From: Methanocalculus natronophilus
GTDB lineage: Archaea > Halobacteriota > Methanomicrobia > Methanomicrobiales > Methanocorpusculaceae
Assembly (NCBI RefSeq): GCF_038751955.1
Contig: NZ_JBCEXH010000002.1
Span: 62,001-126,000, forward strand
Length of the DNA stretch: 64,000 nucleotides
Reading direction: 5' to 3'
The translations under genes were made by a program, and so were the position numbers. The notes below the pieces were generated by a model. It saw nothing but the letters and a program-made list of their open reading frames with translations, had not been told where the DNA came from and searched no databases. Shown here one piece after another: positions 4,239 to 15,961 of this stretch; position 1 is the first letter of the stretch; every line of letters starts with the position of its first letter.

Positions 4239-7200
4239 ATGTCCATCTTACCCATAATGACCGGCAGCAACCCTTCCGATCCACTGGTCTCAATCCTCTA
4301 TGTGGATGACGAACCCGCTCTTCTTGAGATATTTCGTCTGTTTCTGGAGAGAACCGGCGAATTCTCCGTCACCACTGCAGAGAGTGCAGCGGTGGCACTT
4401 GATCTCCTTGCGAGCCGGTCTTTTGATGCAGTCGTCTCTGACTACCAGATGCCGGGGATGGATGGGATTGCATTTCTGAAACACCTCAGAACAACTGGCG
4501 ATACCACGCCATTCATCATCTTTACCGGGAAAGGGAGGGAGGAGGTCGTCATCCAGGCGCTGAATGAGGGTGCGGACTTCTATCTTCAGAAGGGAGGGGA
4601 TCCGAAGTCCCAGTTTGCCGAATTGACCAACAAGATCCGGTACGCAGTCAGTAGCCGGAGGTTTGAGAGAGGTGTGAGCGAAGCAGGCGAGAGATACAAG
4701 GCTCTCATTGCAGTCTCAAATACCGGTGCCTGGGAATACACCCTTGGTTCCGACTTTCTCTGGTGCAGCCCTGAATACTTCTCCATGCTCGGCCGTGATG
4801 CCGCAGATTTTGATCTCTCTGGAAACCCCAACCTGCAGGAGACCTGGATAAACCTGATCCATCCCGATGATCAGTTGAGGGCAGCAGACACGTTCCGCGA
4901 CTTTCTTGAAAGCAACAGTTCCGGGATGTACGAGAACGATTTCCGGATGGCGCATGCTGATGGACGCATGATCTGGATCTGGTCACGCGGCTGGAGGCTG
5001 CGGGACGAGAGGGGGAACCTGACAGATAAAACCATCGGAACCCATATTGATGTGACCGAACGGAAAGAGGCAGAAGATAAACTCATCAGACAAACCGAAG
5101 AACTCCACGCCGCATATGAACAGCTGACAGCATCAGAGGAGGAGCTGCGGCACCAGCTGGATGAACTGACAGTGGCACACCAGGCACTTGATGAGACAAA
5201 TGAATACCTCGAAAACCTCATCACCCATGCCAATGCCCCGATCATCGTCTGGGATCAGCAATGCAGGATCACAAGATTCAATGACGCCTTTAGTAAGATG
5301 ACAGGCATCCAACCGGATGATGCAATCGGCAGCAGACTTGAGCTCCTCTTTCCTGAAGAATCACGGGACGCATCAATGGATCTGATCCGGCGGGCTATGG
5401 CAGGCGAGATGTGGGATGTTGTTGAGATCCCAATCCTGAACCGGTCAGGTGCTGTCAGAACCGTCCTCTGGAACTCGGCAAATATCCGCGGAACTGACGG
5501 GAAGACGATTATTGCCACCATCGCACAGGGACAGGATATTACTGACCGGAAACGAACAGAAGAGGCCCTTACTGCGAGTGAGGCGCAGAAAGATGCAATT
5601 CTGAACGGAATTGGCATCAATATTGCCTTCGTGAACCATGATCTTGAGATCCTGTGGGCCAATAAAACCGCTGCTGCATCTGTGAACCGCGACCAGGACG
5701 GAATACGGGGTCTGCGGTGTTATGAGTTGTGGGGAGATAACCAGGGTCCCTGTCCGAAATGTCCCACAACAAAGGCGTTCCAGACCCTGAGAAGTGAGCA
5801 GACGGTCATACAGACGCCTGATGGGAGATACTGGGATGAAAGGGCTGAACCGGTCTTTGACGCGGAAGGCAGGCTTACCGGCATCGTAGAGATTGCCCAG
5901 GATATCACCGAACAGAAATTAGCCGAATTGGCACTTCTCCAGAAGACTGAAGAACTGCACCAGAAGAATGAGGAGCTTGCAGCATCTGAAGAGGAGATGC
6001 GGACAGCTCATGAACAGCTTGCGGCATCTGAAGAGGAGATCCGCCAGCAGCTTGACGAGCTCATTGCCACACAACAGCAGCTTGCACTCTCTGAAGGCCG
6101 CTACCAGGCGATCTTTGAATGTACACGTGCTGCGACGGTTATTGTTGAGAAAGACACCACGATATCACTTGCAAACAGTGCTTTTGAGGCACTATCCGGC
6201 TATACTCGCGAGGAGCTGATCGGCAGAAGCTGGACTGAGTTTGTGAGCCAGTCCGATCGCAAGCGGATGATCGCATACCACCAGCAGCGGAGAGCAGGGG
6301 AGAGCGGGGAGGGAGAGCCTCCTGGTCAGTATGAGTTCACATTCATCGACCGGTCCGGCACCCCGCATGCCACCCTTGCAACAGTCGGGTTGATTCCCGG
6401 AACCAGCCAGTCTGTTGGTTCGTTTTATGATATCAGTGATCGGAAGGCAGCAGAAGAGGCACTGCTTGAGAGTGAGGGTGCTGTCAGAAGGAAGCTCCAG
6501 GCAATCCTTGAACCAGAGGGATCGTTTGGTGAACTTGAACTCTCAGATATCCTCAATGTCTCCTCTATCCAGGACCTGATGGATTATTTCCACAAGCTTA
6601 CCGGTATTGGTGTGGCGATACTCGACCGCACTGGCAGGGTGCTGGTTGCCACCGGTTGGCAGGATATCTGTACCCGGTTCCATCGTGAGCATCCGGAAAC
6701 CGCCCGGCACTGTCTCGAGAGCGACACCGAGCTCGCCAGTGGTGTTGCCCAAGGCGAGTTCAAACGTTACCGGTGCAAAAACAACATGTGGGATATCGCA
6801 ACCCCCATCAGTATCGGTGAGGAGCACGTTGGCAACCTCTATCTCGGCCAGTTCTTATTTGAGGGCGAGGAGCCGGATCGTGAGGTCTTCAGGCGTCAGG
6901 CAGAGCGGTATGGGTTTGACGAGGAGCAATACCTGGCTGCACTGGATCGTGTTCCCCGGTGGACAGAGGAGACTGTGGATACGGTGATGCGCTTCTATGC
7001 CGGTTTCACTCAGATCATCTCATCACTCAGCTATGCAAATCTCAGGCTGGCACGGGAACTCAGTGAGAAAGATGACCTGATGAGCCGTCTTGCCGCATCC
7101 GAGGAGCAGTACCGCCGGATCGTTGATACATCAGCGGAAGGGATATGGCAGATGGATGCAGGCTTTCAGATCACCTATGTGAACCGGCAGCTTGCGGATA

Positions 7201-9212
7201 TGCTCGGGTATACACCCGCAGAGATGAGCGGTATGGATATTGCCGCTTTGATCCCACCAGAAGAGCGTGCCGACTCTGAATTGAGGAGGGAGAGACAGCG
7301 GAGAGGTGAGGTTGACCATTTTGAGCGGAAATTAATCCGAAAAGACGGGCAGATTCTCTGGACATCAGTTGCGATCACCCCCATCATCGGTGCTGACGGG
7401 GAATACCAGGGTTCGTTTGCGATGGTGGCAGACATCAGCGGACGAAAGGCTGCTGAAGATGCTTTGCTTTCAGAAGAAGCCAGGTTACGGGCGATCACCG
7501 AGACTGCCAAAGACGCAATCCTGATGATGGATCCAGAGGGGAAGATATCATTCTGGAACCAGACAGCAGAGGATATCTTTGGTTATACAAAGGATGAAGT
7601 AATGGGGACGGATCTGCATACCCTGCTGGCACCGGAACGCTACCTTGATGCATATACAAGAGGCTTTGCATCTTTCCAAAAGACCGGCGAGGGTACAGCA
7701 ATCGGCAGGACTCTTGAGTTAGAGGCTGTCTGCAAAGATGGGAGGGAGATAGTAATTGAGCTTTCACTCTCGGCGCTTGGTCTTCCTGATGGCTGGCACG
7801 CGGTTGGTATTATCCGTGATATCACTGAGAGGAAGTTGGTAGAAGAGAAGAACCGGGCAATTGCCAGCATGCTGGATATCGCCCCCGGCTCAATCACCAT
7901 CCATGATTATGATGGGAACTTCCATTTTGCAAATCAGAAAACCTTTGACATTCATGGCTATTCAAAAGACGAGTTCCTCTCAAAAAAACTCGCAGATATC
8001 GATTTTCCATCAAGTGCAGAACTCATAGGAGAACGGATGCAGCAGATTGCTCAGGATGGCGAGGCATCATTTGAGGTTGCACACAGAAGAAAGGATGGAT
8101 CAGTTGTTTCACTTGAAGTCTTTGTCAAAGAGGTGGAATGGGAGGGAAAGCCCGCCCTGCTGAGTATTGCAACCGACATCACCGGGCGAAAGGCTGCTGA
8201 AGATGTTCTCAGGAAGAGCGAAGCACTCAAGAGCCATATTATTGATGCGATACCGGATATACTCTTTATACTGGATTCTGAAGGGAGATTCATTGACGCC
8301 ATGGCATCAGATGAAGATCTCCTGGTGGCTCCAAAAACTGAACTTCCCGGTAAAACAATCGTTGATCTTATACCCGGCCCTGACGGAAGAAGGATGGCAG
8401 AAGCAATCGCAGAGACACTTCAGCACCAGGATATGGTGACGATTGAATATGCTCTCTCTGTTCCGGCTGGAATATGCCACTTTGAAGCACGTATCGTGCC
8501 ATACCTTGACAACCAGGTGTTAGCTCTCGTACGTGACGTGACTGAGACGAAGGCTGCTGAAGAGGCGCTCCTGGCAGCACATAAGAAACTCCGGATTCTC
8601 TCTTCCATCACCCGTCATGACATAGCAAACAAGGTGTTGGTAATTCGTGGACTGCTGGAGATCGCAGGCGAAGCCGAAGCATCATCCGCACCCCCCATCC
8701 GGCTGGATGAGATCCAAAACGCTACTGAGGCCATAGATCGGCAGATTGCGTTTATGCAGGATTACGAACAAATCGGGGTACAAAATCCCAGCTGGATGGA
8801 GCTCTCCGGGCTCATCCGGATGATAGACGAGACAAAGCTCTCTCTTCACCATACCTGCACGTCAATCCACCTCTATGCCGATCCGATGGTGGAGAAGGTC
8901 TTCTCCAACCTCCATGATAACACCATCAGGCACGCAGATGGTGGAGACCAGATTACTATCTCCTGTGAAGAGCGGGATGGCAGTCTCGTCATCACCTGGG
9001 AGGACAATGGCGTGGGCATCCCGGATGGAGAGAAAGAGAAGATCTTTGAGAAGGGAGTTGGGAAGAACACCGGGTTTGGACTCTTCCTCTCAAAAGAGAT
9101 CCTCGAAATCACCGGCATTGCCATTCGTGAAACAGGAGTGTATGGAGAAGGAGCACGATTTGAGATTATTGTTCCGAAAGGTTCATGGCAGATGGAGGAG
9201 CAGGAGCGATAA
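4239..9212 (+). CDS. Giant receiver/multi-PAS/PocR hybrid histidine kinase
   Basis: 1657 residues. A receiver domain occupies residues 1-130 with the acidic pair D23-D24, phosphoacceptor Asp68 (VVSDYQMPGMDG), Thr96 and Lys118. Four PAS units follow to about residue 750, separated by Glu/Gln-rich coiled coils (residues ~275-330 and ~560-620). Next is a PocR-type ligand-binding domain (about 765-940) with clustered Cys/His (CTRFHREHPETARHC, FKRYRC). Four more PAS units run to about 1445. The C-terminus is a kinase with RHDIANK (His1460), NLHDNTIRHADGG and DNGVGIPDGEKEKIF. No transmembrane segment is seen, so it is probably cytoplasmic. The third PAS unit has a CPKCPTTKAF motif that may bind a metal or heme (speculative). 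Start could also be the second Met, 18 bases on. The Met at 4239 follows an AT-rich stretch that may hold the promoter. Confidence 0.9.
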   Translation: MSILPIMTGSNPSDPLVSILYVDDEPALLEIFRLFLERTGEFSVTTAESAAVALDLLASRSFDAVVSDYQMPGMDGIAFLKHLRTTGDTTPFIIFTGKGREEVVIQALNEGADFYLQKGGDPKSQFAELTNKIRYAVSSRRFERGVSEAGERYKALIAVSNTGAWEYTLGSDFLWCSPEYFSMLGRDAADFDLSGNPNLQETWINLIHPDDQLRAADTFRDFLESNSSGMYENDFRMAHADGRMIWIWSRGWRLRDERGNLTDKTIGTHIDVTERKEAEDKLIRQTEELHAAYEQLTASEEELRHQLDELTVAHQALDETNEYLENLITHANAPIIVWDQQCRITRFNDAFSKMTGIQPDDAIGSRLELLFPEESRDASMDLIRRAMAGEMWDVVEIPILNRSGAVRTVLWNSANIRGTDGKTIIATIAQGQDITDRKRTEEALTASEAQKDAILNGIGINIAFVNHDLEILWANKTAAASVNRDQDGIRGLRCYELWGDNQGPCPKCPTTKAFQTLRSEQTVIQTPDGRYWDERAEPVFDAEGRLTGIVEIAQDITEQKLAELALLQKTEELHQKNEELAASEEEMRTAHEQLAASEEEIRQQLDELIATQQQLALSEGRYQAIFECTRAATVIVEKDTTISLANSAFEALSGYTREELIGRSWTEFVSQSDRKRMIAYHQQRRAGESGEGEPPGQYEFTFIDRSGTPHATLATVGLIPGTSQSVGSFYDISDRKAAEEALLESEGAVRRKLQAILEPEGSFGELELSDILNVSSIQDLMDYFHKLTGIGVAILDRTGRVLVATGWQDICTRFHREHPETARHCLESDTELASGVAQGEFKRYRCKNNMWDIATPISIGEEHVGNLYLGQFLFEGEEPDREVFRRQAERYGFDEEQYLAALDRVPRWTEETVDTVMRFYAGFTQIISSLSYANLRLARELSEKDDLMSRLAASEEQYRRIVDTSAEGIWQMDAGFQITYVNRQLADMLGYTPAEMSGMDIAALIPPEERADSELRRERQRRGEVDHFERKLIRKDGQILWTSVAITPIIGADGEYQGSFAMVADISGRKAAEDALLSEEARLRAITETAKDAILMMDPEGKISFWNQTAEDIFGYTKDEVMGTDLHTLLAPERYLDAYTRGFASFQKTGEGTAIGRTLELEAVCKDGREIVIELSLSALGLPDGWHAVGIIRDITERKLVEEKNRAIASMLDIAPGSITIHDYDGNFHFANQKTFDIHGYSKDEFLSKKLADIDFPSSAELIGERMQQIAQDGEASFEVAHRRKDGSVVSLEVFVKEVEWEGKPALLSIATDITGRKAAEDVLRKSEALKSHIIDAIPDILFILDSEGRFIDAMASDEDLLVAPKTELPGKTIVDLIPGPDGRRMAEAIAETLQHQDMVTIEYALSVPAGICHFEARIVPYLDNQVLALVRDVTETKAAEEALLAAHKKLRILSSITRHDIANKVLVIRGLLEIAGEAEASSAPPIRLDEIQNATEAIDRQIAFMQDYEQIGVQNPSWMELSGLIRMIDETKLSLHHTCTSIHLYADPMVEKVFSNLHDNTIRHADGGDQITISCEERDGSLVITWEDNGVGIPDGEKEKIFEKGVGKNTGFGLFLSKEILEITGIAIRETGVYGEGARFEIIVPKGSWQMEEQER

Positions 9213-9247: not shown

Positions 9248-9895
9248 ATGGAGTCTCTTGTCACTGAGGAGATCTACCGGAGCTATCTCAATGCACTGAT
9301 CGAAGGCGACAGAACCCGTTGCACCAAGATTGTCCAGGAACTTATCAATAAGGGGATCCAGGTTCCGGATCTCTACCTGAACCTTTTCCAGCGTTCACTG
9401 TACCGGACAGGCGAGCTCTGGGAACAGAACCAGGTATCTGTATCAGTCGAGCACCTGGCAACAGCCATAACAGAACGACTGATGGCCCTTGTTGAGCCGA
9501 AGATCTTTGAAGGAGGTTATCGCAGCCACTCGGTTATCGTCGCCTGTGTGGCAGATGAATATCACCAGCTCGGTGCCCGGATGGTTGCAGATCTCTTTGA
9601 GCTCAACGGATGGCGGGGGTATTTCCTCGGTGCCAGCACCCCGGTTCAGGATCTGCTCAGCATGATCGATGAGAAGAAGCCTGATATCGTCGCTCTCTCA
9701 CTCTCCATCTATTTCAACCTCCATATTCTCATGGAGACACTTGACCGCATCAAAAAGGAGCATCCCGATCTCCCGATACTTGTTGGAGGCCAGGCATTTC
9801 GATGGGGAGGAACCAGTGCACTGGCAGAGTACCCGACAGTCATCTACATCCCCTCGATAGAGGCATTGGAGAGCGTCATGGAGCAGGTACCATGA
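9248..9895 (+). CDS. CarH/methionine-synthase-type cobalamin-binding protein
   Basis: 215 residues with a helical cap (1-90) and a Rossmann B12-binding domain (95-215). The cobalamin lower-ligand motif reads DEYHQLG (His106), close to the E-x-H-x-x-G form of the CarH family; later signatures are ALSLSIY (SxL position) and LVGGQAF. The cap carries W58-x9-E68-H69, the same W-x9-EH spacing that marks the adenosylcobalamin light sensor CarH; a plain methionine-synthase cap is the alternative. No DNA-binding or methyltransferase domain is attached. The gene sits between two kinases and its stop overlaps the start of the next kinase gene (ATGA), which argues for a sensory partner role rather than methyl transfer. 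Whether it senses light, redox state or cobalamin itself is inference. Confidence 0.85.
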   Translation: MESLVTEEIYRSYLNALIEGDRTRCTKIVQELINKGIQVPDLYLNLFQRSLYRTGELWEQNQVSVSVEHLATAITERLMALVEPKIFEGGYRSHSVIVACVADEYHQLGARMVADLFELNGWRGYFLGASTPVQDLLSMIDEKKPDIVALSLSIYFNLHILMETLDRIKKEHPDLPILVGGQAFRWGGTSALAEYPTVIYIPSIEALESVMEQVP

Positions 9896-11073
9896 GAGAT
9901 GACCATCACATCCCTGGAGATCCCGAAATCACCGGACATGCACTGCGGTATCTCACTGAAGATGCGGAATGCATGGTGCTCATTCTCGATCATGAAGAGA
10001 CGATCATGTATGCAAACCGGTATGCAGAGGCTGTCACCGGCATACCACTCTCAGGCAGGCACCTCCAAACACTCCTTCTCTTTGGATCTGCTGGGAATAC
10101 TGATACCAGGAGTGTGCTCGATAAATGGAGGAACGAATCACCCCCGCACCTGATGAATATCAGAACCGCAGATGGAAGGCCGTTATCATTTCAGATTCAC
10201 CTCTACCATACCCGACGTTGTCACCTCATCTTCGGGCAGAAAGATTCAACAGGTCCTGAAGTATTGAACCGGGAGATCCTCGGGCTGAACCAGGAGCTGA
10301 CAACAATCACGCGCGAGCTGAATCAGAAGAACGCTGAGCTGGCCGGGCTGAATGAGATGAAGAACCAGTTCCTGGGGATGGCAGCCCATGACCTCCGCAA
10401 TCCGGTCACGATCATACTGCTCTCAATCGATCTCCTCCTCGATTCTGTCCCCGATGACGATCACTCTGATGAAGCACAGATGCTCAGGGGCATCAGGAGA
10501 GCCGCAGCACAGATGAGCCAGGTGATCAACGACTTCCTTGATGTCAGCATCATAGAATCCGGCCAGCTCAGATTGAACATCCGTGAGGTTGACATCCCCG
10601 ATATGCTCGAACATGTACAGCAGAATCTTCATCCGGCAGCAAAAAAAGGAGATGTCACCATGGATATCGTACTGGATCCGGCTATAGAAAGCCTGAGAAT
10701 CGATGGTGGAAAGATTGAGCAGGTTCTGACCAATCTTGGCAGTAATGCCATTGAACACTCACCTTCAGGAGAAAGAGTGATCATCCGGGGCCTGCATGGA
10801 AAAGAGGAGATACGGTTCCAGGTAGAGGATAGTGGAGCTGGCATATCCCCGGAGATGCAGAGAGAACTCTTCAGCCCGTTCTCAGGCAGCAGGAGATCAA
10901 AACGGGGTGGTGAACGAAGTATCGGGCTTGGCCTGGTCATCTCACGAAAGATTGTTGAAGCACATGGCGGAGCAATGTATGTTGAGAGTGAACCAGACAT
11001 TGGATCAACCATCGGGTTTACCCTGCCATATTCTGTCCTCACAAACAGCCAGGATAACAGCCAGGATACGTGA
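9892..11073 (+). CDS. PAS-containing histidine kinase coupled to the cobalamin protein
   Basis: 393 residues from the ATG at 9892, which overlaps the previous stop in an ATGA arrangement; a longer frame from 9802 would run through the cobalamin gene and is not needed. A PAS domain lies at about 20-115, then a short coiled coil, HisKA with MAAHDLRNPV (His166), and HATPase_c with NLGSNAIEHSPSG, DSGAGISPEM and IGLGLVISRKIVEAHGG. No transmembrane helix is seen. Translational coupling to the B12-binding gene suggests that the cobalamin protein supplies the signal that this kinase reads. No response regulator is next to it. Confidence 0.88.
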   Translation: MRDDHHIPGDPEITGHALRYLTEDAECMVLILDHEETIMYANRYAEAVTGIPLSGRHLQTLLLFGSAGNTDTRSVLDKWRNESPPHLMNIRTADGRPLSFQIHLYHTRRCHLIFGQKDSTGPEVLNREILGLNQELTTITRELNQKNAELAGLNEMKNQFLGMAAHDLRNPVTIILLSIDLLLDSVPDDDHSDEAQMLRGIRRAAAQMSQVINDFLDVSIIESGQLRLNIREVDIPDMLEHVQQNLHPAAKKGDVTMDIVLDPAIESLRIDGGKIEQVLTNLGSNAIEHSPSGERVIIRGLHGKEEIRFQVEDSGAGISPEMQRELFSPFSGSRRSKRGGERSIGLGLVISRKIVEAHGGAMYVESEPDIGSTIGFTLPYSVLTNSQDNSQDT

Positions 11074-11186: not shown

Positions 11187-11669
11187 ATGATGATGAAGAG
11201 AGAGAGGCTGACTGAATCAGCAAAAGAACTGAAACAGCCTGGGAAGCAGGCAGCCAGACAGTTTGGTGATGACCATGCTGCGGTAGCAGCAGCACTGAAT
11301 GCACAGATGAGAGAGCGGCCTGATCTTTTGAGGCTGATCGGCTCCGACAACATAGAGATGATGGAGAACAATTCACGAAACCTCTGTCGTTTTCTCGCAT
11401 CGCTCTTTCAGCACTATGAGCCGGATGTCCTTGTCGAAACTGCTCTCTGGGCAGTCAGGACATATCGGGGCCATGGGTTTACTGTTCCCTACTGGCCGGC
11501 GAATCTGGATACCCTGGCTCTGATCCTCAAGGGACGGTATGATGATCAGGTGTATGAGGAATTATACCCGTTCATCGACTGGCTGATCATTCATATCCCG
11601 CTCTTCGTTGAGATCGACGATGAGCTGAAAGCCGGAGGAGATCAGAATAATCAGGAGGGAGGAAACTGA
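11187..11669 (+). CDS. Conserved-looking hypothetical helical protein
   Basis: About 160 residues; several starts are possible (GTG 11181, ATGs at 11187-11193). I do not recognise the family. The sequence is predicted all-helical, with no signal peptide or membrane segment. Notable are the aromatic-rich segment TVPYWPANLDTLALILKG and the C-terminal ELYPFIDWLIIHIPLF, and an acidic tail. It lies 113 bases after the kinase coupled to the cobalamin protein, in the same direction, and before the duplicated CheR/MBL genes, so a signalling role is plausible. A globin-like sensor fold is one possibility from its length and helical make-up, but no proximal histidine can be assigned with confidence. 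Confidence 0.6.
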   Translation: MMMKRERLTESAKELKQPGKQAARQFGDDHAAVAAALNAQMRERPDLLRLIGSDNIEMMENNSRNLCRFLASLFQHYEPDVLVETALWAVRTYRGHGFTVPYWPANLDTLALILKGRYDDQVYEELYPFIDWLIIHIPLFVEIDDELKAGGDQNNQEGGN

Positions 11670-11754: not shown

Positions 11755-12372
11755 ATGGCATTCACGTACTTCTACCGGGATCTCCAGACACTGGAGGTGA
11801 TGATCGATCATATGCTTCCGTCTCTCAATGGGAAGAGAACCATTGATATCTGGAGTGCCGGGTGTGCAATGGGGCCGGAGCCCTACACAATCGCACTTCT
11901 TCTGAAGGAGAATATGGGGGCAATGGACTTTTCAAGGATTCGGATACTTGCAAGCGATATCGATCGCACAAATAATTATGGAGCAATACTCATACAAGGC
12001 AGGTATCCCTTTGAAGAACTTGAGAGGATACCAAACGAACACTTCACCAGGAATTTTACCCCGGATCCAGATACAAAAGATCACTTCATCATCACTGAGG
12101 AAGTCAGGAACAAAGTCAGCTTCAAGCGGCATGATCTCCTCACCCTACACCCTCCCGGCAGGAATTTCTCACTGATCAGCTGCAAGAATGTCCTCCTCCA
12201 TTTCACCGACGAAGAGAGGATCAATGTTATCAGGATGTTTTATGAAAGCCTCGTTGACGGCGGGTTCTTCCTCACCGAACAGACGCAGAAGATGCCCGCA
12301 GAGGTTGCAGATCTCTTCGAGCAGGTGGTTCCGCATGCCCAGGTCTATAGAAAACTGCCTGCCAGGTACTGA
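11755..12372 (+). CDS. CheR-like SAM-dependent methyltransferase, copy 1
   Basis: 205 residues matching the catalytic domain of CheR methyltransferases without the usual N-terminal helical receptor-binding domain. It begins MAFTYFYRDLQTLE, like the FFRD motif of CheR; SAM motif I is IWSAGCAMGPEPYT, then RILASDIDR, the FKRHDLL segment and KNVLLHFTDEERI. The shortened form and the altered MGPEP (CheR usually TGEEP) suggest that the target is not necessarily a chemoreceptor. The gene is followed by a metallo-beta-lactamase gene, and the two-gene unit is repeated directly downstream (13197-14561). Confidence 0.82.
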   Translation: MAFTYFYRDLQTLEVMIDHMLPSLNGKRTIDIWSAGCAMGPEPYTIALLLKENMGAMDFSRIRILASDIDRTNNYGAILIQGRYPFEELERIPNEHFTRNFTPDPDTKDHFIITEEVRNKVSFKRHDLLTLHPPGRNFSLISCKNVLLHFTDEERINVIRMFYESLVDGGFFLTEQTQKMPAEVADLFEQVVPHAQVYRKLPARY

Positions 12373-12474
12373 TCCTGAGATGGAGTCGATTGCAATTGAT
12401 TCACGAGAGCGCTACAATCATGAAGAGACCAGGATATGAAGCAGGTCTACCCTGATGAATAGCAGGACGGTGCC

Positions 12475-13095
12475 ATGAAGATCATCAACCTGACCGAAGA
12501 GAGCGAGCTCTACACCTCGAATGTCTATCTTGTCACCGGCGACTGGAAGACGCTTGATGATCAGAATACGCTGATTGACACCGGGCGTGACCAGAAAATT
12601 ATCGGGATGCTTGCCAGCAGGTGTGCCGGTGTCGGGAAGCGGAAGCTCGACCAGGTGATACTCACACACTCCCACTATGATCATGCATCCCTGACCCATG
12701 AGATCAGGGAGATCTTTGCACCAACGGTCTATGCCCACGCTGATTCCAGGACACCTGTTGATATCAGGCTCAGGGGCAAAGAGACGTTGCGGATTGGTGA
12801 TCGCCTCTTTGAAGTCATTCACACGCCCGGACACACAGAGGATTCAATATGCCTCTTCTGCGAGGAGGAGGGAGTCCTCTTTGTCGGCGACACCATTCCG
12901 GTTATTGGAGGGCCGGGGTGCACCTATGATGAGAGATTTCTTGAGGCCCTGCAGTATATTGCCTCAAAAGATGTGAGGGCGATCTATTATGGACATGGCA
13001 GGCCGATGCTTGGAAACTGCAATGCCATAATTGCGAAATCAATCATGAATATCAGGCAAAGCAGGAGTCATTCCGGGAGCAGCCCCAAGGAATAG
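12475..13095 (+). CDS. Metallo-beta-lactamase-fold hydrolase, copy 1
   Basis: 206 residues of the MBL superfamily. The zinc-binding motif is THSHYDHA, with later ligands in VIHTPGHTEDS, FVGDT and YYGHGRP. The N-terminus (NLTEESELYTSNVYLVTGDW) is the usual MBL strand pair. It lacks an added flavodoxin, rhodanese or RNA-processing domain, so a small-molecule hydrolase such as a glyoxalase II-like thioesterase or lactonase is possible; the substrate cannot be told. It follows the CheR-like gene by 102 bases, and the duplicated copy keeps the same order, suggesting a shared task. Confidence 0.85.
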   Translation: MKIINLTEESELYTSNVYLVTGDWKTLDDQNTLIDTGRDQKIIGMLASRCAGVGKRKLDQVILTHSHYDHASLTHEIREIFAPTVYAHADSRTPVDIRLRGKETLRIGDRLFEVIHTPGHTEDSICLFCEEEGVLFVGDTIPVIGGPGCTYDERFLEALQYIASKDVRAIYYGHGRPMLGNCNAIIAKSIMNIRQSRSHSGSSPKE

Positions 13096-13196
13096 GATGA
13101 GTGGGAGAGCTGCAGGCACCCATGACAAATCACCAGGTACTGCATGGTGCAAACCCCGGTTTTATCATCCTTCCAAACAAAACAGATGATGGATAT

Positions 13197-13820
13197 ATGG
13201 CATTCACCTACTTCTTTCGGGATCTCCAGACACTCCGGATGATCATTGATCACATGCTCCCCTCTATCCGGGGGAGGACGCACATTAATGTCTGGAGTGC
13301 CGGGTGTGCAATGGGCCAGGAACCCTACACAATCGCACTTCTCCTGAAGGAGCATATGGGACAGATGATATTCCGCAATGTCAGGATACTTGCAAGCGAT
13401 ATCGATCACTCCAACCTCTTTGGCGATATAATTGGAAAAGGCAGCTATCCGTATGTCGAGTTAAAACGGATACCGGAAGAGTACTTTGCCAGAAATTTTA
13501 CCCCGGATCCTGATAAAAACGGACATTACATCATAGCTGAGGATGTCAGGAACCGGGTTGCCTTTCAACGGCATGATCTCCTCACCTTAATCCCGCCCGG
13601 CAAAAATTTCTCGCTGATCACCTGCAAGAATGTGCTCCTCCATTTTACAGAGGAACAGAGAATCAAGATTATCAGGATGTTTTATGAGAGCCTGATTGAC
13701 GGCGGGTTCTTCCTCACCGAACAGACGCAGAAGATGCCAACTGAACTTGCAGATCTCTTCGAGCAGGTTACCCCGAATGCCCAGGTCTTCAGAAAACTGC
13801 CTGCCAGTTCCCGTTCCTGA
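13197..13820 (+). CDS. CheR-like SAM-dependent methyltransferase, copy 2
   Basis: 207 residues from the ATG at 13197, chosen because the protein then begins MAFTYFFRDLQTL exactly like copy 1; an in-frame start at 13101 would add 32 residues without similarity to copy 1. It shares motif I VWSAGCAMGQEPYT, RILASDIDH, FQRHDLL and KNVLLHFTEEQRI with copy 1 and differs at many positions, so the duplication is not recent. Like copy 1, it lacks the N-terminal CheR helical domain. It is followed by the second metallo-beta-lactamase gene. Confidence 0.82.
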   Translation: MAFTYFFRDLQTLRMIIDHMLPSIRGRTHINVWSAGCAMGQEPYTIALLLKEHMGQMIFRNVRILASDIDHSNLFGDIIGKGSYPYVELKRIPEEYFARNFTPDPDKNGHYIIAEDVRNRVAFQRHDLLTLIPPGKNFSLITCKNVLLHFTEEQRIKIIRMFYESLIDGGFFLTEQTQKMPTELADLFEQVTPNAQVFRKLPASSRS

Positions 13821-13949
13821 TTATGGAGTCGATTGCATTGATGCAAATAAATTGCCGCCATGAAAATTGCCGCCATGATGAGGAGACCAGACTATGAAGA
13901 GAGCAGATAATGAGGCTCCGCAACCCTGAGTGAGGAGATAGGTGTTTCC

Positions 13950-14561
13950 ATGAAGATCATCAACCTGACTGAAGACAGCGAGGTTTACACCTCGAATGTC
14001 TATCTTGTCACCGGCACCTGGAATGCCCTCTCGGATCAGAATACCCTGATAGATGTCGGGCGGGATCCGTTGATCTTCGAAAAGATACAGAATGCACGTA
14101 CTGGTGTCGGGAAGCGGAAGCTTGACCAGGTGATCCTGACACACTCCCACTATGATCATGCAATGCTTACTCCGGAGATCAGGGAGCTTTTTTCACCCCG
14201 CATCTATGCCTTCTCCAATTCCCTGAAATACATCGACATCATCCTCAAGGGGGATGAGATCATTCGTATCGGAGATCGGGAATTTGAAGTGATCCACACA
14301 CCCGGCCACACACATGATTCGATCTGCCTCTACTGCGAGGAGGACGGAGTGCTCTTTGCAGGAGATACACCCGTGATCATCCGTGTCCCCGGTAGTACCT
14401 ATGATGAGGCATTTCTCGAGGCCATGCTCTATATTGCTACAAAAGATGTGAGGGAGATTTATTTTGGGCATGGCAGGCCGATGCTTGAGAACTGCAATGT
14501 TGCAATACGGAACTCAATCATGAACATGAAGAAGAGCAGGGTTGTCTCCATTCATCTATGA
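13950..14561 (+). CDS. Metallo-beta-lactamase-fold hydrolase, copy 2
   Basis: 203 residues, closely similar along its length to the protein at 12475: NLTEDSEVYTSNVYLVTG, THSHYDHA, VIHTPGHTHDS, FAGDT and YFGHGRP are conserved. All predicted zinc ligands are kept, so both copies should be active. The region before the gene contains a 15-base tandem duplication (13849-13878, unit with TTGCCGCCATG). The gene closes the duplicated module; after it lies about 500 bases without a convincing gene. Confidence 0.85.
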   Translation: MKIINLTEDSEVYTSNVYLVTGTWNALSDQNTLIDVGRDPLIFEKIQNARTGVGKRKLDQVILTHSHYDHAMLTPEIRELFSPRIYAFSNSLKYIDIILKGDEIIRIGDREFEVIHTPGHTHDSICLYCEEDGVLFAGDTPVIIRVPGSTYDEAFLEAMLYIATKDVREIYFGHGRPMLENCNVAIRNSIMNMKKSRVVSIHL

Positions 14562-15473: not shown

Positions 15474-15637
15474 CTAAAGGTTCAGGAGAAGGCAGACAAG
15501 GAACCGGACACCTTCATTCTCTCGTTTGATGAGAAGAGCGGCATTCAGGTTCTCGATTCGAAACATCGCGATCTGATGCCGGTACCCGGGTGGCACCCCT
15601 ATATTCATCGGGATTATGAATATCTCTATTCCAGCGA
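15474..15637 (+). mobile_element. IS630-type transposase remnant (internal part)
   Basis: In the plus frame starting at 15474 the sequence encodes LSFDEKSGIQVLDSKHRDLM and then PGWHPYIHRDYEY, which matches the second catalytic Asp region (FxDE) and following R/Y segment of IS630-family transposases. Both ends are missing. The similarity fades at about 15637, where the toxin gene on the other strand ends (15626). Inactive. Confidence 0.7.
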
Positions 15638-15961
15638 CAACAGACCCTTTAAAAGAACGCTTATCGCTTCCATATCCTCAACCGAGCATCGCCCGATCTT
15701 CCGGACGAAGCGATCTTCAGAGAGAGTAACAATCTGGAAGACCAGCGCCGCACTTGTGGAAGTAAGTCCATTCTGTGAACTTTTCTCTATGCCATGAGTG
15801 TGCGGGAATGAAAAAGCCGCCGGAGTGGTTGTCAGTGGAACCACGATGGCCATATTCCCGAAGGCGACGGCGAGCACAACGGCAGGACGGAGCCCACTCT
15901 GCTCGTGACCCCGTGCATCCGAAAGATCGACGAACCAGATATCGCCCCTGTTCCGCCGCAT
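15626..15961 (-). CDS. PemK/MazF-family toxin (endoribonuclease)
   Basis: 111 residues beginning MRRNRGDIWFVDL, followed by GLRPAVVLAV, VVPLTTTP and VFQIVTLSEDRFV, the standard pattern of PemK/MazF mRNA interferases (GDI.W.vdl, G.eq.G.RPavv, pltt). It starts one base after the stop of the gene at 15963-16493 and so is translationally coupled to it. No typical AbrB- or RHH-type antitoxin precedes it; the upstream operon genes (15963-16493 and a winged-helix regulator at 16483-16833) are the candidates for antitoxin. Its stop lies in the IS630-type remnant. Confidence 0.85.
   Translation of the reverse strand: MRRNRGDIWFVDLSDARGHEQSGLRPAVVLAVAFGNMAIVVPLTTTPAAFSFPHTHGIEKSSQNGLTSTSAALVFQIVTLSEDRFVRKIGRCSVEDMEAISVLLKGLLSLE

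Follow-up and report, generated by a model that had tools for sequence, protein, structure and literature searches.

Genes at the locus

The window, a stretch of 64,000 nucleotides from the methanogen Methanocalculus natronophilus, contains a module of three genes on the forward strand. The first gene (positions 9248-9895) encodes a stand-alone, predicted cobalamin-binding sensor protein of 215 amino acids and is preceded on the same strand by a strong SD-like sequence, GGGGGAAGGA. The protein is composed of a helical cap (PF02607, 8.5e-15) and a Rossmann B12 domain (PF02310, 2.5e-18), both scoring above the curated Pfam cut-offs. Pfam yielded these two domains only, in agreement with the preliminary description of the locus, which had stated that a DNA-binding domain is absent. 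The AlphaFold model of the B12 protein has a pLDDT of 94.6.

The second gene (9892-11073, forward strand) encodes a sensor histidine kinase of 393 amino acids. Its ATG at 9892 runs into the stop codon of the B12 gene at 9893-9895, giving the four-base ATGA overlap already noted. The protein had been called a PAS kinase, and the kinase half of this name is clear. Both the HisKA domain (10357-10563; PF00512, 1.8e-15), with the phospho-acceptor His in the sequence AAHDLRNP, and the HATPase_c catalytic domain (10708-11031; PF02518, 1.2e-23) score above cut-off, as expected of a two-component sensor kinase. The PAS half is weak, the N-terminal PAS-like domain (9943-10212) being matched below the cut-offs by PAS_8 (8e-4) and PAS_9 (1.4e-3).

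The third gene (11187-11669, forward strand) was overlooked in the preliminary description. It encodes a stand-alone photoglobin-like globin of about 158 codons, the start being at 11187, 11190 or 11193, where there are three ATGs.

Upstream of the module, a forward-strand gene for a protein of 1657 amino acids (4239-9212) ends 35 bases before the B12 gene. This possible output partner has an N-terminal receiver domain (PF00072, 5.5e-24, residues 19-123), about seven PAS domains, a PocR domain and a C-terminal HATPase domain. Its receiver is the nearest to the module, and the protein is perhaps the phosphotransfer partner of the kinase. On the other side, at 11755-14561, a pair of genes for a CheR-methyltransferase and a metallo-beta-lactamase is present in two tandem copies with 76-84% DNA identity and a spacing of around 1.44-1.48 kb; this duplication adjoins the sensor module. 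A PemK/MazF-like toxin gene (PF02452, 3.7e-22) is found further along on the reverse strand (15629-15961).

Relationships of the B12 protein

The motifs of the B12 protein read GELW-EQNQVSVSV-EH, DEYHQLG and LGASTP. The first of these contains the upper-ligand (adenosyl) pocket motif W58-x9-E68-H69 (9419-9454), and a W-x9-EH upper-ligand pocket is a signature motif (PMC11796333). The second contains the E-x-H-x-x-G site, E104-Y-H106-Q-L-G109, where His106 (9563-9565) is the predicted lower axial cobalt ligand and aligns with His108 of the photocobilin SasPcob. The third provides a GxxxP element, GASTP (residues 128-132, 9629-9643). The cap spacing and the B12 site that had been read from the open reading frame at 9248-9895 were thus both found. 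In an alignment of 42 homologues (A3), residues G55, W58, E68, H69, H106, G109, G128 and P132 are invariant. The full GxxW-x9-EH motif is present in all 70 full-length homologues closer than an E-value of about 1e-20, and the more distant corrinoid proteins from the same searches all lack it, showing that its occurrence in the window protein is more than chance. Most distant corrinoid proteins without it have DxHDxG, which is the methyl-carrier form.

The published SignatureFinder light signature consists of GxxW, EH, GxxH and GxxxP (PMC11796333). Three of these four elements are found in the window protein (GELW, EH and GASTP), and the place of GxxH is taken by DEYH. Since the Gly of GxxH meets the corrin by its main chain, the change to DxxH may be tolerated. 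Strict mining with the signature would miss the clade to which the window protein belongs.

By both sequence and fold, the nearest solved relatives of the B12 protein are the photocobilins (SasPcob and AbDPcob; PDB 8J2W, 8J2X and 8J2Y), ahead of CarH. SasPcob took first rank in the phmmer search, the profile search and the fold comparison. Photocobilin 8j2w was matched at 1.7e-25 by sequence (phmmer) and at 1.1e-43 by profile (hmmsearch), and was also the best Foldseek match of the model (TMq 0.88), with photocobilins occupying ranks 1-2. The photocobilins share with the window system the W-x9-EH motif and E/DxH B12 domain, a photoglobin partner with a conserved Trp, and action on an effector, also in trans. 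They differ in carrying globin and B12 domain in one chain, where the window has separate genes at 9248-9895 and 11187-11669, and in having Asp270 at a position that is Asn in the window globin. The window system further differs in its histidine kinase output and in its archaeal host, which has no recognizable heme oxygenase.

The similarity to CarH/LitR (TtCarH, PDB 5C8D) comprises the W-x9-EH cap, the His lower ligand and the B12 fold (TM around 0.75). However, CarH/LitR proteins have a MerR-type N-terminal DNA-binding domain, lacking in the window protein, and a DNA-binding output in place of a histidine kinase. The NCBIfam CarH model scored the B12 protein at 53 bits against a cut-off of 400. 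The earlier label "CarH-like" does not name the nearest relative, although a protein of the B12-photosensor type coupled to a histidine kinase, as then proposed, is well supported. The residue next to Trp58 is Glu59, as reported, and not the His132 that forms the bis-His light state of CarH. This had been entered as a caveat. SasPcob has Gln at the position in our alignment and is nevertheless photoactive (PMC10979010), so the Glu59 caveat carries little weight.

The stand-alone globin and its pocket

No Pfam or NCBIfam family matched the globin at 11187-11669. Its AlphaFold model is all-helical, with a pLDDT of 96. A Foldseek search with the model gave weak E-values (best 0.02), the matches listed being phycobiliproteins and globins. 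The best fold matches were smURFP, phycobiliproteins and globin sensors; VIA-align superposed the globin on smURFP with a Z of 14.2 and an rmsd of 2.3 over 126 residues, and on the globin half of SasPcob with a Z of 11.8 and an rmsd of 2.8 over 118. Profile comparison of the globin family with the globin halves of photoglobin-B12 fusions by hhalign gave an E-value of 6e-8 with no sequences shared between the alignments (shuffled controls were at or above 0.16); with shared proteins the value was an inflated 6e-28. A direct hhalign comparison of the globin family with the globins linked to heme oxygenase was not significant, so the link between these two groups passes through the fused photoglobins. 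The alignment of stand-alone globins by itself (A4) found nothing among PDB sequences, and hence the assignment as a globin comes from the fold, the hhalign comparison and the fused sequences that serve as intermediates. Once the fused forms were added to it, the profile detected allophycocyanin at 7e-6 and SasPcob at 0.0015. Six bacterial fusions unite a B12 domain with a member of the globin subfamily found in the window, linking the B12 and globin genes of the module.

Fold and profile homology, together with the lack of an invariant His, characterize the protein as a non-heme, phycobiliprotein-like globin. We considered a heme globin sensor, and heme sensors do match the fold equally well, yet with no His invariant in the family heme binding appears unlikely. 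The possibility of an unrelated downstream gene was ruled out, as the globin gene is a conserved member of the module and in some cases precedes the other two genes or separates them.

In SasPcob, biliverdin is held by Asp270, and Trp296 touches both bilin and corrin (PMC10979010). The equivalent residues in the window globin, taken from an alignment with the SasPcob chain at a 6-residue numbering offset (Trp61 in the paper corresponds to residue 55 of the chain), are Asn60 (11370-11372) and Trp86 (11448-11450). Trp86 is invariant in 34 aligned rows and is conserved in all four heme oxygenase fusions described below. At the Asn60 position, Asn is found in 23 of 23 subfamily members, Asp in four of four photoglobins fused to heme oxygenase, and Asp or Tyr in other fused globins. 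Heme oxygenase (PF01126) was detected neither in the window genome (G000) nor in the tested genomes with a stand-alone globin; among 31 genomes tested, it was found only in the four with heme oxygenase fusions and in one Paenibacillus. Given the Asn substitution and the absence of PF01126 from the genome, the window globin is unlikely to hold biliverdin as SasPcob does. AbDPcob has His in place of the Asp, and its B12 still responds to light as a switch (PMC10979010).

Neither of the B12 adenosyltransferase families PF02572 and PF01923 was found in the window genome, and so methyl- or hydroxo-cobalamin may be the input of the B12 protein. PF02572 is absent also from 18 other genomes of the same family. 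Of 100 genomes from the order, 21 have it, one of them a carrier of the module (G145), and the absence of these families need not mean a lack of adenosylcobalamin.

Conservation of the module and its possible signal

In a maximum-likelihood tree, the window protein falls in a clade of 25 stand-alone B12 proteins (support 100/99) from four methanogens and several bacterial phyla. A kinase gene is adjacent or one gene away in 21 of the 25, and a photoglobin lies beside the B12 gene in 19, of which 15 are stand-alone and four are heme oxygenase-globin fusions. This association of the globin gene with the other two is conserved in both archaea and bacteria. The partner kinases mostly scored 92-565 bits against the window kinase, compared with at most 62 bits for other kinases on the same contigs; two partner kinases (L127 and L128) are weak or truncated. 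A response regulator follows the module in several bacteria (L033, L034, L035, L121, L122 and L129). At L035 a globin remnant with an internal deletion (5842-5997) immediately precedes a B12 gene and a kinase gene that are both intact.

The four heme oxygenase-photoglobin fusions (L036, 7744-9036; L037, 6579-7961; L123, 4363-5667; L129, 6548-8047, reverse strand) have a further C-terminal part and occur in Verrucomicrobia, Victivallales and a Desulfobacterota-type genome. The heme oxygenase domain of the L036 fusion was matched by PF01126 at 1e-20. Heme oxygenase is the enzyme that makes biliverdin.

The B12 proteins of the four methanogens and one from Sumerlaeota nest within the bacterial clade, these five being grouped at 100/99, and just 6 of the 232 genomes from the order carry the globin gene. 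The simplest reading of this distribution is that the methanogens probably acquired the module from bacteria by horizontal transfer. At two loci, L064 and L065 (genomes G366 and G373), the flanks are as in L063 and the globin is intact, and the B12 and kinase genes have been lost. In Methanosarcina-type genomes, fused photoglobin-B12 proteins with small kinases nearby were also seen (L006-L008 and L050-L052); the three fusions inspected keep the Asp, and PF01126 was not found in those three genomes.

With moderate confidence, we interpret the observed genes, their domains and predicted folds, the conservation of the pocket and the co-inheritance as a split photocobilin, that is, a three-gene B12-globin-kinase two-component system. 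In the mechanism that we infer, the 215-residue protein would bind cobalamin in the base-off form, with His106 as the lower ligand of the cobalt and an adenosyl or methyl group as upper ligand in the pocket of Trp58 and Glu68-His69. The resting state would probably be a head-to-tail dimer of the kind formed by photocobilins and CarH, with the separate globin docking on the corrin edge via Trp86 like the fused globin of SasPcob. Breakage of the Co-C bond, for which green light is the most likely trigger, would then change the dimer and the way it contacts the kinase translated together with it. This kinase would in turn alter phosphotransfer to a receiver, which in bacteria would be the adjacent response regulator and here perhaps that of the upstream 1657-residue protein. 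The light state of a photocobilin activates an enzyme in trans, which is a precedent for the control of a separate protein (PMC10979010).

Several features count against a split photocobilin: DxxH in place of GxxH, Asn60 in place of the biliverdin Asp, the lack of PF01126 and of PF02572 and PF01923, and the two methanogens that keep the globin alone. Several relatives come, by their sample names, from deep or dark water, so habitat provides no argument for light as the input. The module may instead be a light sensor that uses B12 only, or a sensor of redox or alkyl state. A possible but less favored explanation is that the same module senses the redox or alkylation state, or the amount, of corrinoid, with a kinase that reports the status of methyl-corrinoid or of oxidants and a globin that serves as an adaptor or binds a different ligand. 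Methanogens handle large corrinoid methyl pools, and such a role would suit a genome with no known adenosyltransferase family and no heme oxygenase, and a globin subfamily with Asn for Asp throughout. On the other hand, the W58/E68/H69 pocket, which holds adenosyl in the solved structures, is strictly invariant, and the bacterial members beside heme oxygenase point to a role for a pigment in the module.

It is highly improbable that the B12 protein is the corrinoid methyl carrier of some methyltransferase and merely out of place next to a kinase gene. It does share two Pfam domains with MtgC, MttC and MtaC, has a DxHxxG-like motif and gives weak NCBIfam matches, far under the cut-offs. Nevertheless, in a tree of 89 proteins the 68 rows with the signature separate from the 21 without it at 100/96, and the window protein does not group with the carriers of the MtgC/MttC/MtaC/MetH type, which fall outside the signature branch. 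The photosensor cap is present in all signature homologues and in no carriers, and the gene adjoining the B12 gene is a conserved kinase rather than a methyltransferase. The second B12 protein of the genome (L056, 3463-4104, reverse strand) makes a useful contrast, as it does adjoin a gene resembling a corrinoid methyltransferase and, judged by this neighbor, looks like an ordinary methyl carrier. Motif, tree and neighborhood together argue firmly against such a carrier at the present locus, and the possibility raised earlier that close homologues would prove to be methyl carriers was not borne out. It is also quite improbable that the module is a recent bacterial acquisition that is decaying or silent and now does nothing for the methanogen. 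The patchy distribution of the globin gene (6 of 232 genomes) and the loss of the B12 and kinase genes in two relatives would agree with this. Yet the window, G042, G145 and G362 all have intact frames, and among these four genomes protein identity is roughly 50-87% with all pocket residues kept.

Two arrangements related to a split photocobilin are already known: stand-alone globins beside B12 proteins (BBAG-2) and photoglobin-B12 fusions (photocobilins). In BBAG-2, as in the window, the gene for a stand-alone globin of the photoglobin lineage adjoins that for a stand-alone B12-binding protein, and these globins bind biliverdin (PMC10151467). BBAG-2 is tied to heme oxygenase and a bilin reductase, in Myxococcales among others, whereas the window encodes a kinase dedicated to the module and heme oxygenase was not found in the genome. 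Schneider et al. in 2022 reportedly described photoglobin-B12 signalling proteins as a predicted light sensor hub in signal transduction; in the cited cases these are fused in one chain, unlike the split form in the window. Schneider et al. aside, a three-part system with a kinase of its own, the occurrence of such a system in a methanogen, and the subfamily with Asn and without heme oxygenase were not found in the literature examined. The suggestion that such a system would be new for a methanogen thus holds for the split combination of B12 protein, kinase and globin, unreported in the literature examined, but not for B12-photoglobin fusions as such, which occur at the Methanosarcina-type loci L006-L008.

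B12 photosensors are known in the form of DNA-binding repressors and of globin-fused regulators of enzymes. A system with sensor, globin and kinase as separate parts would show how B12 sensors plug into two-component signalling. Light as the input of the window sensor is inferred. More speculatively, a strictly anaerobic methanogen could be sensing light or cobalamin state by a B12-globin-kinase complex in which the globin, having abandoned biliverdin, is an adaptor or binds a tetrapyrrole; as a tentative suggestion, this could be another tetrapyrrole such as a biosynthetic intermediate of corrinoids or F430. With the bacterial heme oxygenase-globin fusions at the same position, a form that probably uses a pigment can naturally be compared with one that is free of it. 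A system of this kind would raise the question of why a methanogen should sense light, or watch its corrinoid pool with the architecture of a light sensor.
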